DNA from: Sulfurimonas sp. HSL1-2
Lineage (GTDB): Bacteria; Campylobacterota; Campylobacteria; Campylobacterales; Sulfurimonadaceae
NCBI RefSeq assembly: GCF_039645565.1
Contig: NZ_CP147914.1
Location: forward strand, 1,981,573-2,045,572
Length of the DNA: 64,000 nucleotides
Direction: 5' to 3'
Part shown: positions 3,494 through 53,062 of the stretch, one piece after another
Layout: each line of letters begins with the position of its first letter
How positions within the stretch are numbered: the stretch's first letter is position 1
Translations under genes and position numbers: made by a program
The notes under the pieces: generated by a model
What the model saw: only the letters and a program-made list of their open reading frames with translations
The model's database searches: none
Told to the model about the DNA's origin: nothing

Positions 3494-3860
3494 TGGTGGA
3501 GCTGTGGAGAATCGAACTCCAGTCCGAAAACAAGCTACCTGCGGCGTCTACATGCTTAGAGGGGTTGTTTGGTTTAACCGGGCTTCACACAACCTGCAAA
3601 GCTAGACCAGGCGAGTCTCGAAGTTCTTCTGCAGATGAGACAATCTGCAGATATATCTGGAGAAGGGTGATACTTCAAAATCCTTCCTATCCAGAGTCGG
3701 AAGGCGAAGCAGTCCTAAATTAAGTTAAAACTTACGCTACAGCGTAAGCAGGACGATAATTTGTATTGTTTGCAGTTATGCAATCTGAGCCGTATAACGG
3801 GATGCTCAGCCCGGCATGCAACCGTAGGCGACCTGATCCCGTCGAAACCTGGTCAGCCCC
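3494..3860 (-). ncRNA. ssrA: Transfer-messenger RNA (tmRNA)
   Basis: Single-piece tmRNA of 367 nt that rescues stalled ribosomes with SmpB. The 5' end GGGGCTG pairs with CAGCTCC just before A-CCA at the 3' end, giving the 7-bp acceptor stem; a T-arm (GGAGTTCGATTCTCC) precedes it, and the D-loop-like 5' segment reads GACCAGGTTTCGACGGGATC. The CCA is encoded (3494-3496). The internal reading frame is given separately. Short reading frames in this interval are therefore not protein genes. Confidence 0.97.
3732..3773 (-). other. tmRNA proteolysis-tag reading frame
   Basis: Reading leftward from the resume codon GCA at 3773: A-N-N-T-N-Y-R-P-A-Y-A-V-A then TAA. The ANN... start and ...YAVA end match the tag type known from epsilonproteobacteria. 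Tagged proteins are targets for ClpXP-type proteases. Confidence 0.92.
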
Positions 3861-28689: not shown

Positions 28690-28738
28690 CATGCAACCTT
28701 TCCGGGCAAGGCCCTCTGTGTAATTTGTCGTGGCAACG

Positions 28739-28744
28739 ATTATA
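28739..28744 (-). promoter_or_regulatory. -10 box of the hpf promoter
   Basis: Leftward TATAAT about 50 nt before the hpf start; TTGAAT 19 nt further upstream may be a poorly spaced -35. Confidence 0.5.
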
Positions 28745-28790
28745 ACACAGCAAACATGTCATTATTCAAGCCCGATAGGCACAAACGCGC

Positions 28791-28796
28791 TAAAAT
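28791..28796 (+). promoter_or_regulatory. -10 box directly before recG
   Basis: TAAAAT, five bases (ACCCC), then the recG ATG at 28802. No Shine-Dalgarno sequence precedes the ATG. Confidence 0.4.
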
Positions 28797-28801
28797 ACCC
28801 C

Positions 28802-30592
28802 ATGCATATTGAACAGGCCGATATCGAAAAATTCAAAAAACTCGGAGTCTATTCGGCCGCAGAGCTGGCCATTCTCGCCCCGGTCCGGTTTGAAGACCGC
28901 CGGCTCTCTCCCAGGCTTACCGAAGGAATCGAGCAGGCCATCGACGCCACAGTCGAGTCCATCCAACGCACCCCCCGCACCGTCACGATCACCCTGTTTG
29001 TCCACAATTTCGGTCACCGCATCGAGGGGGTCCTTTTCAATCCGAAACCCTATATGCTTCGTTTTTTCGTCGAAGGGGAACGGGCCCTGTACTACGGCCG
29101 TATCGACTGCAGACAGGGGCGCTGCCAGATGAGCCATCCCCAGCGCATCCCCGAAGCGGGCTCGCTGACGCCGAAGTACAAAACGGCGCTGCGGACTGAC
29201 GTGATGGCCCGTCTTGCAGCGCGCTACATCACCCGGGAAAACCTGTTGGAAGAAGGGCTTCCGCCCCGTGTCGCCGATGCACTGATGGGGCTCCATTTCC
29301 CCCAGACTGCGCCCCAGAAGGAGCCGACACCCGCAGAGCTCTATGCCCTCAAATATGCCGAACTCTACAGCTATATGCGTTCGCTCCGTGGGAAACGGCG
29401 TTACTTCGATGTCCTGCAGAAACTCGACAACGATTGGCGCCGCTGGGCCATGCAGCTGCCGTTTCTGCTGACCGATGAACAGACGAGGGCCATCGAGGCG
29501 ATCGAAGCGGATTTTAAAAAGCCCCATGCCGCCAAGCGGATGGTCGTCGGCGATGTCGGTGCCGGCAAAACCATGGTGATCCTTGCCGCCATGCAAATGG
29601 CCACGCCGTACCGCAGCGTCCTCATGGCCCCGACAACGATCCTTGCCAACCAGCTTTACGAGGAGGCACGGAAATTCCTCCCGGAAAAGAAAATTCTGCT
29701 CGTCACCAATGCCACGCCGAAAAAACTGCCGCTGGAGGAGGCCGATGTGCTGATCGGAACGCATGCCCTGCTCTACCGCGACCTGCCCGAAGCGGCCCTC
29801 ATCATGGTGGATGAGCAGCACCGTTTCGGCACAGCGCAGCGCCACCGGCTCGAGAAGCTGATCTCCGACGGCGCCCGTCATCCCCACTACCTGCAGTTCT
29901 CCGCCACGCCCATCCCCCGTACCCAGGCCATGATCGATTCCGCCCATATCGATGTCAGCCTCATCACCAAGACCCCCTTTAAAAAAGACATTACGACCAC
30001 GGTCATCCACAAACCCGATTTCCCATCTTTGCTGTCACACATCCGTGGGGAAATCGCGCAATCGCACCAGGTGCTCATTGTCTACCCGCTGGTCGAAGAG
30101 AGCGAGAACTTCGGCTACCAGAGCATTGAAGAGGCACGGGGGTACTGGGAGAAGCATTTTGCAAACGTCTACGTCACCCACGGCAAGGACAGGGAAAAAG
30201 AGGTCATACTTGAAACCTTCAGGGAGCAAGGGGACATCCTGCTCGCTACGACCGTCATCGAGGTCGGGATCTCCCTTCCGCGTCTGACGACGGTCGTCAT
30301 CGTCGGCGCCGAACGGCTGGGACTGGCAACCCTGCACCAGCTGCGCGGACGCGTCAGCCGTACCGGCCTCAAGGGATGGTGTTTTCTCTATACAAACCTG
30401 AACGAAAGCGAGCGCCTCGACGCCTTCCGCCAAACGGACAACGGCTTCGACATCGCCGCGCTGGACCTCAAATACCGTAAAAGCGGCGATCTTCTCAAAG
30501 GGAGTATCCAGAGCGGGAAGAAGTTCCTCTGGGCCGATCTGGCCGAGGATGAGGGAATTGTTCGGGAAGTCAAAGCGGCGCTATCGCCCTGA
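28802..30592 (+). CDS. recG: ATP-dependent DNA helicase RecG
   Basis: 596 residues, shorter than the approximately 690 of E. coli RecG because the N-terminal wedge region is reduced. Remodels stalled forks and Holliday junctions. Helicase motifs: Walker A VVGDVGAGKTMV, motif Ia LMAPTTILANQ, DEQH box MVDEQHRFGTAQRHRL, motif III LQFSATPIPRTQA, motif V LLATTVIEVGISLPRLTTVV and motif VI HQLRGRVSRTGLKGWCFLY. Start at ATG 28802, where the protein-like sequence begins; a longer frame to 28730 runs antisense through the hpf promoter. No ribosome site; a -10-like box is five bases upstream. Confidence 0.93.
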   Translation: MHIEQADIEKFKKLGVYSAAELAILAPVRFEDRRLSPRLTEGIEQAIDATVESIQRTPRTVTITLFVHNFGHRIEGVLFNPKPYMLRFFVEGERALYYGRIDCRQGRCQMSHPQRIPEAGSLTPKYKTALRTDVMARLAARYITRENLLEEGLPPRVADALMGLHFPQTAPQKEPTPAELYALKYAELYSYMRSLRGKRRYFDVLQKLDNDWRRWAMQLPFLLTDEQTRAIEAIEADFKKPHAAKRMVVGDVGAGKTMVILAAMQMATPYRSVLMAPTTILANQLYEEARKFLPEKKILLVTNATPKKLPLEEADVLIGTHALLYRDLPEAALIMVDEQHRFGTAQRHRLEKLISDGARHPHYLQFSATPIPRTQAMIDSAHIDVSLITKTPFKKDITTTVIHKPDFPSLLSHIRGEIAQSHQVLIVYPLVEESENFGYQSIEEARGYWEKHFANVYVTHGKDREKEVILETFREQGDILLATTVIEVGISLPRLTTVVIVGAERLGLATLHQLRGRVSRTGLKGWCFLYTNLNESERLDAFRQTDNGFDIAALDLKYRKSGDLLKGSIQSGKKFLWADLAEDEGIVREVKAALSP

Positions 30593-30609
30593 TGTGTGAT
30601 GAGACAGCT

Positions 30610-30771
30610 TGACAATATCCGCTTCTACTGTCAAAGCCGAAACGGTCGTTAGCGTGTCAGCCGGATCACCGGGGCATGGAGTGCCCCGAAAGCGGCAGCT
30701 TGTCATCCTTTTTTCTTCCCGGTTCGGCTTCTTTTTTGGATAAGCAAAAAAGAAGGGGAACAAAAAAATTG
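30610..30771. repeat. Dispersed intergenic element, copy A
   Basis: About 160 bp between the convergent recG and M16-like genes, ending 2 bp from the M16 stop. From 30631 it aligns without gaps to 52141 onward (offset 21510), with identical blocks such as GTGTCAGCCGGATCACC and CCCGGTTCGGCTT. It starts with TTGACA ... TGTCAA arms, has a GGGGCA/TGCCCC hairpin (30671-30687), and ends with a perfect 11-bp hairpin at 30728-30755 (arms CTTCTTTTTTG/CAAAAAAGAAG, loop GATAAG). Read either way the hairpin arms give T- or A-runs, so it may serve as a two-way terminator. A leftward frame is open in both copies but lacks a consistent start codon. Confidence 0.85.
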
Positions 30772-30772
30772 C

Positions 30773-32068
30773 TTACTCTTCCGTAACGATCGCGAAGGTA
30801 AGCTTCTCGATCTCCCCATGCTTTTTGATAAAGGCATTGAGCGTGGCAAGGTCGAGCGTTTCGATCTGCGCGAGTTCGCGGGTGGAAGCACCGATCCCTT
30901 CACCCTTGTAGTACTCCAGGAAGGTGCGCGAAAGGCGCTGGGAGAGTGTCTCGACACGCAGCGGTTCGGAACCGAGCAGGAAGCGTTTTGCCTGGTCGAG
31001 CTCCTCCTGGGTCACCCCCTTCTCGATAAACGTTTCGATCACTTCCCGAACCGTTTCGACCGCCTCTTTCTGCGAAGCGATCTTCGTCTGGAGGTAACCG
31101 AAGAAGTAGCTGTTCGAACGCGCGATATTGGCACGGCAGTATGCAGAGTAGGCCAGCCCACGCTTGACACGGATCTCCTCCATCATCCGGCTTCCGAAGC
31201 CTCCGCTGCCGAGGATGAACATCGCCACGCGGCTGATGTAGTGCTCGGGATCGCCGACTTTCATCTCAAAAGGGGCCCCGAAATAGACATAGGCCTGTTC
31301 CGTTTTGCGCTTAAGCAGCTCCGTCTTCGCCGCAGCGCTGGCCGGGTAGAACCCGAGGCTCTCCAGCGAACCCTTCGGCAGGTGGCCCAGCAGTCGGCGG
31401 GCGGCATCGGCGGCGTCCGCCTTGGAAATATCCCCGCCGATCACCACGATGGCACGCGATGTCTGGAGATGATCTTTGACAAACGATTTGATCTGTTTGA
31501 GCTCCATCGCCTTGACGCTCTCAACCGTCCCGGAGGCCGGGGCAGCCAGCGGTGTTCCGGCAAAAAGTGCCGCTTTGAGTTCGCGGTTGGCGACATAATC
31601 GAAGTCGCTCTCTTTGCGGCTGAGCGCACCGACGGAAGTCGTCTTCACCTTCTGCAGGGCTTCCTTGCTGAGGTTGGGCGTCGTAAGCAGCTCTTCGAGC
31701 AGACCGACCGCTTCGCCGAACTCCTCTTTGAGCGAGCCCATTTCAAAGACCATCGTCTCTGTCCCGGCATGCACGCTGAGATGGATGGCCCGTGCGTCGA
31801 GCGCCTCTGCGAAACCGACGGCGCCGCGCTTCTGCGTCCCTTCGTTGAGCATCGAAGCCGTCACCTTCGCCAGGCCCGCATCGGCGCCGTCCTCGATGGA
31901 ACCGCTCTGGCGGAAGACCAACTGCATGGAGACGATCGGAAGCCGAGGGTCCTTCTCAAATATCATCGGCACCTCGATGCCGTTTACTTCTACCTGTTCC
32001 ACCGTCGTTTCAGCCATTACAATCTGTCCTGTCAAAAAAATGAATATTAATAGCGCTTTGAAGCTCAC
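30773..32068 (-). CDS. M16-family peptidase-like protein without the HxxEH motif
   Basis: 431 residues with a Sec signal (MSFKALLIFIFLTGQIVMA). It has the two repeated M16 halves: the first around residues 35-200 and a second with FGAPFEMKVGDPEHY and LGSGGFGSRMMEEIRVKRGL, AYSAYC. Where active M16 enzymes have the zinc motif HxxEH, this protein reads GLAKVTASMLNEGTQ, with no His, so it is probably not catalytic by itself; family members of this kind pair with an active subunit. The stop lies 2 bp from repeat copy A. The first codon overlaps the mqnC stop by 4 bp (ATGA). Confidence 0.85.
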   Translation of the reverse strand: MSFKALLIFIFLTGQIVMAETTVEQVEVNGIEVPMIFEKDPRLPIVSMQLVFRQSGSIEDGADAGLAKVTASMLNEGTQKRGAVGFAEALDARAIHLSVHAGTETMVFEMGSLKEEFGEAVGLLEELLTTPNLSKEALQKVKTTSVGALSRKESDFDYVANRELKAALFAGTPLAAPASGTVESVKAMELKQIKSFVKDHLQTSRAIVVIGGDISKADAADAARRLLGHLPKGSLESLGFYPASAAAKTELLKRKTEQAYVYFGAPFEMKVGDPEHYISRVAMFILGSGGFGSRMMEEIRVKRGLAYSAYCRANIARSNSYFFGYLQTKIASQKEAVETVREVIETFIEKGVTQEELDQAKRFLLGSEPLRVETLSQRLSRTFLEYYKGEGIGASTRELAQIETLDLATLNAFIKKHGEIEKLTFAIVTEE

Positions 32069-47761: not shown

Positions 47762-48085
47762 ATTCTGCCGATCCTTATCTGTCTGTTTTCATTCAAAAAG
47801 ACGGCATCTTCTTGAATGAGAACGGAGAGAGAAACCCGAGTGGCCGTTCCGCAAGATAGCTTTGGTTCTCAAAGCCAAAAAAATACGGATTGAGCGCTTC
47901 ATCAGGCGGCGGTCTCTCGGGCTTGCGCCCTCCAGCGAGATCACCGGCACACAAAAGCGACTACCCCATCCATAGTATAGATATGTAGAACCCCCTGAAA
48001 TGCGAGAGCTCGCACCACCCAGGCTGCTAGTCAAATTATAGCCGATACGCCATAAAGAGGGGCTAAAAAACGGGAGGTGATTTCC
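47762..48085 (-). other. 324-bp non-coding region between trpA and purD with several hairpins
   Basis: No convincing gene. Leftward towards purD it holds a TGCGAG/CTCGCA inverted repeat (48001-48014), a GGGC/GCCC hairpin (47919-47930), a GCTTTG/CAAAGC hairpin with loop AGAAC (47859-47875), and, 28 nt before the purD start, a 12-bp hairpin at 47790-47818 (arms CATTCAAGAAGA/TCTTTTTGAATG with one G-T pair, loop TGCCG). An 81-codon leftward frame covers most of it but is rich in Arg/Ser and has no ribosome site. It could be a long purD leader, a small RNA or a decayed repeat. Confidence 0.5.
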
Positions 48086-51020: not shown

Positions 51021-52073
51021 GTGAAGCCGCAGACGATCTTCGCCATCCTGCTCGCGGCATCGCTCTACTGGATGTACCTGCTCTACAGCCCCTACCTGAT
51101 GAGCATCCTTATCGCCTCCCTGCTCGCCGTTTCGACCTTCTCGTTCAAACGGCGGCTGCGGGAGTGGTCCGGATCGGTTCTCGCGGCGGCGGCCCTCTCG
51201 ACACTCGTGATGGCCCTGCTCTTCTTCGCACCGCTGGGCTACTTTCTCGCCAAGATCACCATCTACCTGCAGCACTTCGACCCTGCGAGCCTCGAATCGG
51301 TCATGGACTACCTGCAGGAGCTTGTAGAGCGTGCGCCGGGATTCTCCGGGCGCTCCAGGACCCACGTCTCGGACTTTATCACCTCGTACGACCCCGCCGA
51401 TCTGACGAAGAAAGCGCTCGCCTACGCCGGCACCATCGGCAGTATCAGCGCCTCTTTTGTCAAGAACGCGTTCATGATTATCGTCTTCTACTTCTTCGCG
51501 CACCTCTACGGCCAGCGGCTCGCAGCCTATTTCAAACATGTCATCAACCTCCCGCCCGATGATGCGGCCCTGCTGGGCTCGGAGGTCTCTTCGGTGATGA
51601 GTATCGTCTTCTACTCCATTCTGCTGACCGCGGCCCTGGAGGGGGCGCTGTTCGGGATCGCCGTCAGTTTTATGGGCTACAACGGTCTGCTTTTCGGCAT
51701 TCTGTTCGGATTCGCCTCGCTCATTCCCGTCGTCGGCGGCGCCCTGATGTGGGTCCCCTTCTCCCTCTACGAACTCTCCGTCGGCCATACGGGCAGCGCC
51801 GTTTTCATCGCACTCTATACGATCATCGTCATCTCCGTGATCGCGGACACCTTCATCAAACCGGTGATCATCAAGAGCATCGACAGCAAACTCTCCACGA
51901 CCGAGACCAAGCGCAACGAGCTCATCATCTTCTTTGCCATCATCGCCGGACTGACGAGCTTTGGGTTCTGGGGCATGATCCTCGGTCCCGCCATCACCGC
52001 CTTCTTCATGGCGCTGCTGACGCTGGTGGAACGCAAAAACGCGATCAGCGAACGGGCGACGGATATCAGTTGA
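51021..52073 (+). CDS. AI-2E family transporter (PerM-like permease)
   Basis: 350 residues with about eight hydrophobic helices and an amphipathic middle segment. Family pattern: SLIPVVGGALMWVPFSLYEL, then DTFIKPVIIKSI and FGFWGMILGPAITAFFMALL near the end. Members have been linked to autoinducer-2 or ion efflux; substrate unknown here. GTG start at 51021, 9 bp after ruvB. A TTAAGCG tandem repeat and a dispersed repeat follow its stop. Confidence 0.9.
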   Translation: MKPQTIFAILLAASLYWMYLLYSPYLMSILIASLLAVSTFSFKRRLREWSGSVLAAAALSTLVMALLFFAPLGYFLAKITIYLQHFDPASLESVMDYLQELVERAPGFSGRSRTHVSDFITSYDPADLTKKALAYAGTIGSISASFVKNAFMIIVFYFFAHLYGQRLAAYFKHVINLPPDDAALLGSEVSSVMSIVFYSILLTAALEGALFGIAVSFMGYNGLLFGILFGFASLIPVVGGALMWVPFSLYELSVGHTGSAVFIALYTIIVISVIADTFIKPVIIKSIDSKLSTTETKRNELIIFFAIIAGLTSFGFWGMILGPAITAFFMALLTLVERKNAISERATDIS

Positions 52074-52086
52074 ATAGCAGTCAGAG

Positions 52087-52114
52087 TTAAGCGTTAAGCG
52101 TTAAGCGTTAAGCG
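52087..52114. repeat. Tandem repeat, four copies of TTAAGCG
   Basis: Four exact 7-bp units in a row, 13 bp after the permease stop codon and just before dispersed element copy B. The copy number could vary by slippage. Confidence 0.95.
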
Positions 52115-52120
52115 CAGCCT

Positions 52121-52281
52121 GTGACAATCCGTCCATTCTGTCAAGGCCGAAACGATCATTTGCGTGTCAGCCGGATCACCGAGGAATAGAGTATCCCGAA
52201 AGCGGCAGCTTGTTGCCCTTTCTTTTTCCCGGTTCGGCTTTTTCTTTGTGCATGCAAAGAAAAAGGGGAACAAACAATTGC
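52121..52281. repeat. Dispersed intergenic element, copy B
   Basis: Second copy of the element at 30610-30771, again between convergent genes (permease and dUTPase) and ending 3 bp from the dUTPase stop. Begins TGACA ... TGTCA, keeps GTGTCAGCCGGATCACC and CCCGGTTCGGCTT, and ends with a perfect 11-bp hairpin at 52238-52265 (arms CTTTTTCTTTG/CAAAGAAAAAG, loop TGCATG). Relative to copy A, two base pairs in the stem differ and both changes are compensated on the other arm. The GGGGCA/TGCCCC hairpin of copy A is not preserved. Confidence 0.85.
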
Positions 52282-52284
52282 AAA

Positions 52285-52965
52285 TTACGCTGCCGGATAG
52301 GCACTTTCCAAAGAAGCATAAAGTTCCTCAGGCGTCATATCGCCTTTCTCTTCCCAAAGCCGCTTCATCACGACATTGTCCTCTTCCCCGTTCCAGACCT
52401 TGACGTAATGCCCCTCTTTGTAGCCGTGGTCCTGGCGGAACTGGTTGAGAATGTTCTTGCCGACGTAGAGGCGGTAGAGCGACGTGAGGTCGAGGTTGCT
52501 CATGCGGACCAGTTCGAAAAAGTCTGCGAGCAGTTTGGTCAGGTCGGGCTTGCTGTCGAGGGCGTCTTTCATCACCGACTCCACCTGGGCCATCACGAGC
52601 TTCTCGACGGCGAACCCTTCCGCTTCATCGTTGAGCATCTCGTAAAAAGGCATGATCGCGATCGCCTTCGCCGCGTCATCGAGGCTGCCGAGATCGCGCT
52701 GCTTGTACTCCTGCAGCACCAGGCTCATCACGAAGTGCCAGACGTCCACGACCTCGATCTGCAGGTTGGCCCAGTCCGGCTCGGCGGCGATGTTCTTCCA
52801 GTGCTTCCATGCGAACGAGTCGATCATCTCGGCGCACTCCATGTAGATACAGCGCTTCCAGTTGATCGCCTTGCCGTTCTTGGTCGTACCCGCTTCCCAG
52901 TCTGCTCCGTTCGTGGCATCGTTGAGCTGCTGTTGCAGCTGCAGCATCTGTAAAGCTCTGTTCAT
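52285..52965 (-). CDS. dut: Dimeric all-alpha dUTP diphosphatase
   Basis: 226 residues. MazG-related dimeric dUTPase like that of Campylobacter, which removes dUTP and supplies dUMP. Metal-binding acidic motifs: YMECAEMIDSFAWKHWKN and LQIEVVDVWHFVMSLVLQEY; later VGKNILNQFRQDHGYKEGHY matches the family. ATG at 52965 with GGAGCG 7 nt upstream; an ATG nine codons earlier is possible. Its 3' end abuts repeat copy B. Confidence 0.92.
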   Translation of the reverse strand: MNRALQMLQLQQQLNDATNGADWEAGTTKNGKAINWKRCIYMECAEMIDSFAWKHWKNIAAEPDWANLQIEVVDVWHFVMSLVLQEYKQRDLGSLDDAAKAIAIMPFYEMLNDEAEGFAVEKLVMAQVESVMKDALDSKPDLTKLLADFFELVRMSNLDLTSLYRLYVGKNILNQFRQDHGYKEGHYVKVWNGEEDNVVMKRLWEEKGDMTPEELYASLESAYPAA

Positions 52966-53062
52966 GGGTACGCTCCGTTTTTTTGTCGACATTTTACCGG
53001 GAATTGTATTCAGCCCCCCTTCCGTCCGGGGCCGTGAGGAAAAGACGAGTGTGCCGGTACGG

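Follow-up and report, generated by a model that had tools for sequence, protein, structure and literature searches.

The window, i.e., the whole 64,000-nt stretch of DNA that was analysed, covers positions 1,981,573-2,045,572 of the 2,521,190-bp, single-contig genome of Sulfurimonas sp. HSL1-2. It carries two copies, A and B, of a dispersed intergenic element, which align gap-free between 30631-30765 and 52141-52275 at an offset of 21510, reproducing the alignment given in a preliminary description of this DNA. Gene calls, made with a simple codon-usage caller, likewise bear out the earlier placement of both copies between convergent genes. The features of the two loci are listed below in window coordinates, with structural parts named after the predicted fold.

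28730-30592, plus strand: helicase-like gene, head-on (lagging-strand), upstream of copy A (copy oriented in sense within the 3' flank of this gene)
30605-30763, plus strand: copy A, whole element; 5' edge placed where heptamer arrays stop in other copies
30694-30763, plus strand: copy A, 70-nt 3' module (model R1)
30703-30708, plus strand: copy A, pseudoknot stem 5' strand TCATCC (partner 30738-30743, one mismatch)
30709-30720, plus strand: copy A, third strand TTTTTTCTTCCC, parallel-complementary to 30746-30757
30722-30725, plus strand: copy A, lower stem 5' strand GTTC (partner GAAC, 30758-30761)
30728-30737, plus strand: copy A, hairpin stem 5' strand CTTCTTTTTT
30738-30743, plus strand: copy A, hairpin loop, also pseudoknot stem 3' strand, GGATAA
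30746-30755, plus strand: copy A, hairpin stem 3' strand, purine arm AAAAAAGAAG
30758-30761, plus strand: copy A, lower stem 3' strand GAAC
30773-32068, minus strand: zinc-protease-like gene, co-directional (leading-strand), convergent on copy A
51021-52073, plus strand: membrane-protein gene, head-on, upstream of copy B and downstream of a RuvB-like gene
52086-52114, plus strand: heptamer tandem array (GTTAAGC)4.1, adjoining the 5' edge of copy B
52115-52273, plus strand: copy B, whole element
52204-52273, plus strand: copy B, 70-nt 3' module
52213-52218 and 52248-52253, plus strand: copy B, pseudoknot strands (two mismatches)
52219-52230, plus strand: copy B, third strand
52238-52265, plus strand: copy B, hairpin
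52285-52992, minus strand: co-directional gene convergent on copy B

The distance of 2-3 bp to the leftward stop codon claimed earlier needs correction, as the paired stem, counted with the lower stem, lies ~11-13 bp away and the alignable block 7-9 bp away. Rfam matches in the window were to tmRNA and the purD RNA motif, at 3494-3860 and 47834-47964 (minus strand). Assignment of the element itself to a known Rfam family was rejected, with no match at gathering score; among its relatives, RF02421 overlaps the Caballeronia one only.

The host genome holds 17 copies of the element rather than the two first seen, and the matches are not due to chance, full-length copies elsewhere in the genome being found with BLAST E-values of ~1e-20 to 1e-85. 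The element is ~135-160 bp long, plus a heptamer array in some copies. Aligned copies consist of a variable 5' part (...TGTCAAG..CGAAACGGTCATTAGCGTGTCAGCCGG..CCCGAAAGCGGCAGC) and a highly conserved 3' module; a few copies comprise the module alone, and in some others the loop is ~47 nt longer. A long-loop variant with an extra hairpin around GCGCTAAAGCGC is seen within the genus at L016, L027 and L043, and also in the second copy of the Caballeronia locus L245. The heptamer arrays (TGCTAAG, AGTTAAG and GTTAAGC) stop exactly 89 nt before the module in three copies, and other heptamers are arrayed on the same side in relatives; the element was therefore considered to begin, on its 5' side, at this boundary. 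The heptamer unit differs by locus and mostly contains TAA or TAG, in several genera (L083, L085, L026, L141, L142, L058). A reverse-transcriptase partner, an idea prompted by a likeness to telomerase RNA and by these arrays, was discarded, since no RVT_1/PF00078 domain is found in the host genome.

Other genomes of the genus carry orthologous copies, with presence or absence varying at some syntenic sites. Neither clean empty sites nor target duplications were found among the syntenic element-less sites, which are replaced rather than cleanly empty, so that insertion ends cannot be read from them. In genome G004 (L107, 5880-7240) the gap corresponding to that of copy B contains an apparent OmpA-type gene and lacks the element. 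At orthologous loci the module type may switch with the 5' part retained (L001 versus L034/L040), the switched L034/L040 module resembling L014, a copy from elsewhere. Such exchanges make gene conversion between copies likely; because of it, counts of covarying sequences overstate the number of independent events, and comparisons across families provide the stronger evidence. As regards other vehicles of spread, the element occurred in no plasmid record, and the genus pattern was unmatched in any viral contig.

The plus strand of the copy A module reads TCATCC-TTTTTTCTTCCC-G-GTTC-GG-CTTCTTTTTT-GGATAA-GC-AAAAAAGAAG-GG-GAAC. The perfect 11-bp hairpins noticed earlier (CTTCTTTTTTG/CAAAAAAGAAG and CTTTTTCTTTG/CAAAGAAAAAG), with both differences compensated on the opposite arm, were confirmed; in copy A the hairpin is CTTCTTTTTT/AAAAAAGAAG, to which a lower stem GTTC/GAAC is added across a GG/GG loop. 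The preliminary description had not noticed the pseudoknot, the third strand, the 15 further copies or the orientation lock described below. The bases 5' of the pyrimidine tract are complementary to the hairpin loop, typically as TTATCC:GGATAA, with TTGCCC:GGGCAA, TCGCAC:GTGCGA, TTGTGC:GCACAA and TTGTAC:GTACAA in other copies; in the window this pseudoknot stem is imperfect, with one mismatch in A and two in B. Across 17 distinct modules, 4 of the 6 pseudoknot pairs and 4 of the 14 hairpin pairs (8 altogether) show two-sided changes, 96.8% of cells are paired compared with 57-68% after sliding by 1-3 columns, and the covariation score is 0.307 against 0.138 for shuffled data. Among 340 pair cells there are no G-U intermediates.

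The upstream pyrimidine tract, in turn, is complementary to the purine arm when both are read in the same direction, as in TTTTTTCTTCCC//AAAAAAGAAGGG, TTTCTTTTTCCC//AAAGAAAAAGGG, TTTCTTCTTCCC//AAAGAAGAAGGG and CTTTTTCTTCCC//GAAAAAGAAGGG. Parallel complementarity over 7-15 triplets is found in 19 distinct types, each a different tract pair among the modules located, which represent several families and phyla, and in asymmetric types the antiparallel reading is mismatched. Exceptions are a single third-strand mismatch in individual copies (L051, L169) and one extra T in the main Ilyobacter type. Under a general definition of intrastrand triplexes (three R/Y tracts with at least 8 compatible triplets), modules of the genus have 11-12 consecutive triplets and those of other families 9-15. 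In 179 kb of host genome (the 64-kb window plus 115 kb), A and B are the only sites that combine a hairpin with a parallel third strand, and the same architecture has no occurrence in a further 181 kb beyond the window, 115 kb of them host genome.

As a predicted fold, the third-strand match corresponds to a pyrimidine triple helix with T.A-T and C+.G-C triplets. The order of parts in the 3' module (5' loop strand, pyrimidine third strand, pyrimidine arm, loop, purine arm) would allow one strand to fold into an H-type pseudoknot with a long pyrimidine triplex, loop 1 of which is predicted to run along stem 2 in its major groove. In pseudoknots of this type, stem 2 accommodates loop 1 in its deep groove, and stem 1 accommodates loop 3 in its shallow groove. 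Both sets of covariation are explained by the plus strand of the element alone, since a major-groove third strand can coexist with the pseudoknot on that strand only. Simple RNA folding of a 79-nt module, a method blind to pseudoknots and triplexes, gave z-scores of -1.1 for the plus strand and -2.3 for the other.

These data bear on the functions proposed at first. The earlier expectation of a dispersed intergenic element under structural selection is upheld; its own reservations, that just two copies might exist and that covariation might end at the two pairs then known, are answered by the 17 copies and by the joint covariation of pseudoknot, hairpin and third strand. A two-way intrinsic terminator would suit the convergent junctions and the position of the stem near stop codons, and one element-less syntenic site has a different stem-loop directly after the stop codon. 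Neither strand, however, has a T-run after the stem, a terminator scan was negative there, and symmetric use would not yield a single orientation, which leaves this function improbable. A short leftward peptide, whose frame is open in both window copies with synonymous changes in the hairpin arms, is rejected: of 28 sequences, 6 have TCG in place of its TTG start, several contain in-frame stops or frameshifts, changes in the third strand are non-synonymous (E/K), and the reverse frames of the second family encode no similar peptide. Membership of the REP/REPIN repeats mobilised by RAYT transposases has equally little to recommend it. REPs are likewise dispersed intergenic hairpins with a possible link to lagging-strand ssDNA, and RAYT genes or remnants are present in several element-carrying genomes, but aligned copies of the element have no GTAG foot, the host genome lacks Y1/RAYT genes, and the RAYTs of relatives are flanked by REPs of their own (CTCGTTCCCAC..GTGGGAATGCAT). 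The preliminary interpretation thus survives as a dispersed, structure-selected intergenic element, but not as a two-way terminator, a REP or a peptide gene. RAYT-type transposases with their own CTCGTTCCCAC..GTGGGAATGCAT ends are decaying in several genomes (G004:2318328-2318858, i.e., L186; G336; G213; G096).

The architecture extends well beyond the genus. Model R1, built from the genus, found weaker copies in two further families that differ in sequence and keep the three-part rule (TTTCTTCTTTCTTT//AAAGAAGAAAGAAA, TTTCTTTTTTTCTTT//AAAGAAAAAAAGAAA), and model R2, for which only sequences of the second family were used, recovered the family of the window, so that two independent models each found the other's family. 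In further families the lengths of the third strand and the purine arm change together, the pseudoknot is CGCC:GGCG, TTCGCA:TGCGAA or TTGCG:CGCAA, and the lower stem CTTC:GAAG, GTCA:TGAC or GTTAC:GTAAC; the pseudoknot stem is weak or unrecognisable in a few distant copies (L155, L157, G218). The distribution is patchy, as strong matches are confined to 3 of the 68 genera of the phylum. A broader probe, representing a repeat which we take to be common in bacteria, retrieved the same architecture from Pasteurella, Caballeronia and Ilyobacter, for example as TGTA-TTTTCTTT-CCTAC-TTTCTTTT-TACA-AAAAGAAA-GTAGG, and gave no match in E. coli genomes. For several relatives the genome assembly is incomplete. 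Two database matches outside the Campylobacterota, in Akkermansiaceae and Gastranaerophilales, were set aside, as neither shows the complete architecture and both resemble chance matches. The nearest public matches that carry a name are a Sulfuricurvum MAG and a Campylobacterales MAG.

Some relatives are arranged in larger units. In Caballeronia, one replicon carries ~500-bp palindromic units at 7 places, within which modules form inverted pairs ~460 bp apart. Modules flank imperfect palindromes of ~400-600 bp in Caballeronia and Pasteurella (L250, L253, L252, L246). A box in the 5' part of the genus element, CGGTCATTAGCG, resembles GGTCTATTAGCG outside the Caballeronia module (L245, L247), with the module reversed relative to the box. 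The palindromic units, together with the 17 similar host copies and the module types traded between loci, would be in keeping with a selfish or relic miniature mobile repeat without a host role, its structure kept only through gene-conversion homogenisation or because past movement required it. Against this rather unlikely origin stand the deep conservation of the three-part structure across families despite fully changed sequence, the positions common to several species, and the strict orientation.

This orientation follows replication. With dnaA at position 78 of the host genome, the 10 copies at 0.13-0.91 Mb are without exception on the minus strand and the 7 at 1.95-2.31 Mb on the plus strand, so that 17 of 17 are consistent with the direction of replication (p ~1.5e-5). 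Four complete genomes of the genus give 68 of 68 (17, 18 and 16 copies in the other three), a count in which many copies are orthologous and hence not independent. Outside the genus, agreement is 8/8 in G096, from another family, 5/6 in G213, and 5/7 on the Ilyobacter megaplasmid, for which the origin was taken from GC skew. The region from 0.95 to 1.95 Mb is free of copies in the genus (p ~2e-4). As for gene context, 13 of the 17 copies lie in convergent gaps, compared with 16% of gaps of at least 20 bp in the sampled sequence (p ~7e-8), three in tandem head-on gaps and one in a tandem co-directional gap; 16 have their plus strand in sense downstream of a head-on gene. Because genes approach a convergent gap from both sides alike, their arrangement by itself cannot set the orientation, whereas replication direction does.

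Action as single-stranded DNA at the fork is a possible, still tentative explanation. The opposite strand (Y-R-R, a class II purine-motif intrastrand triplex) would fold on the lagging-strand template, either as the substrate of a strand-specific mobile or DNA-processing enzyme or as a polar fork-pausing site. That strand is on the lagging template in 17 of 17 host copies and in 68 of 68 across the four genomes, and the lock follows directly if insertion or function requires lagging-strand ssDNA, as for IS608 (PMC6006769). The lack of G-U pairs, the presence/absence differences at syntenic sites, the multiple copies and the patchy distribution agree with it. On the other hand, the third strand would probably cross the minor groove once the pseudoknot formed, leaving its joint covariation with the loop unexplained; the genome has neither a Y1 transposase nor a reverse transcriptase, and no clean empty site or target duplication was found. 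Orientation tied to replication is shared with IS200/IS605-type ssDNA elements, from which the repeat differs in the absence of a Y1 transposase gene from the host genome and of any defined ends or target found.

The closest known counterparts are the bacterial intrastrand triplex repeats BoxC, PIT and TM-ECO, linked to genome instability (Holder et al. 2015, PMC4666352), and the element is broadly of that kind. Both are dispersed intergenic repeats, in some cases arranged as inverted pairs, whose three consecutive purine/pyrimidine tracts on a strand can form a triplex (class IV for one strand, class II for the other). The element departs from them in sequence, in the lengths of tracts and loops, in the pseudoknot and in orientation. 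The window has no match to the TM-ECO consensus CCCTCNCCC-N3-6-GGGNGAGGG-N3-GGGNGAGGG, and the element is A/T-richer and mostly longer, with 10-15 triplets versus 9. Its first loop is 8 nt and its spacer 9-18 nt, while the search of Holder et al. covered loops of 1-6 nt. It has a covarying pseudoknot and a lower stem; BoxC, PIT and TM-ECO lack the pseudoknot. Its orientation is strict, whereas 8 of 13 unpaired TM-ECO copies are in the corresponding orientation, no significant lock by a rough hand count from the published table relative to the oriC and dif positions of E. coli, and the authors state 'no bias' of strand (PMC4666352). By our reading of Table 1 of that source, none of the 23 TM-ECO copies of E. 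coli MG1655 lies near the terminus, at 1.35-3.05 Mb, an absence that recalls the present element and on which the authors are not known to comment.

Among RNAs, the guanidine-III and SAM-V riboswitches (PMC5696562, PMC6061858) have the same strand order with a pyrimidine loop 1 along stem 2. The element differs in its much longer triplex, the lack of a known ligand-binding core, and its occurrence as a repeat scattered close to the 3' ends of genes, not in a 5' leader or at a single gene. Rfam RF02421 (Bp1_684), a Burkholderia sRNA, overlaps the Caballeronia relative in the latter's purine arm and 3' flank; the Rfam model includes neither third strand nor pseudoknot and does not match the host-genome element. 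RF02421 has been detected by RT-PCR in Burkholderia pseudomallei RNA, and its flanking genes vary between genomes (PMC3521395). A literature search covering few subscription journals found no description of the element.

The preferred reading, to which a probability of about 0.38 is assigned, is a non-coding repeat with a triple-helix pseudoknot module, acting most likely as RNA in head-on 3' tails and present as amplified, gene-converted copies. It is favoured because the plus strand fits both covariations, lies in sense behind head-on genes, and has a relative overlapping an RNA that has been detected, and because RNA allows intrastrand triplexes of the pyrimidine type but not of the purine type (PMC4666352). 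The acting strand would be the one transcribed against the fork, its position being observed and its use suggested by the pseudoknot geometry. Upon transcription of the head-on gene its 3' tail would fold, and the fold may block 3' exonucleases and/or pause or stop the polymerase ahead of the converging leading-strand gene. Past amplification would have spread the copies, with 3' modules now apparently swapped by gene conversion, as the module switches partly demonstrate. Counting against an RNA role are the absence of G-U pairs, unusual for RNA, which the triplex or gene conversion could account for, and the lack of terminator activity of BoxC/PIT elements in E. coli (PMC4666352). Nor does an RNA role alone explain the orientation lock, because leading-strand genes need 3' ends too; as the lock fits lagging-strand ssDNA more directly and G-U pairs are absent, the ssDNA explanation is kept close in probability. 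That the elements across Campylobacterota, Beta- and Gammaproteobacteria and Fusobacteriota are all RNA triplex pseudoknots at head-on 3' ends, fixed by replication and working at head-on junctions, is an extension that is doubtful at present.

The replication lock offers a clean, testable handle on the role of bacterial triplex repeats, since action as RNA where head-on genes end and action as ssDNA at forks are predicted to involve opposite strands. Because relatives occur in Burkholderiales and Pasteurellaceae, such a strand test would be feasible in tractable organisms. If the fold is real, the element gives bacteria a naturally occurring pyrimidine triple helix of considerable length, which a covarying pseudoknot secures and which recurs in many copies per genome.
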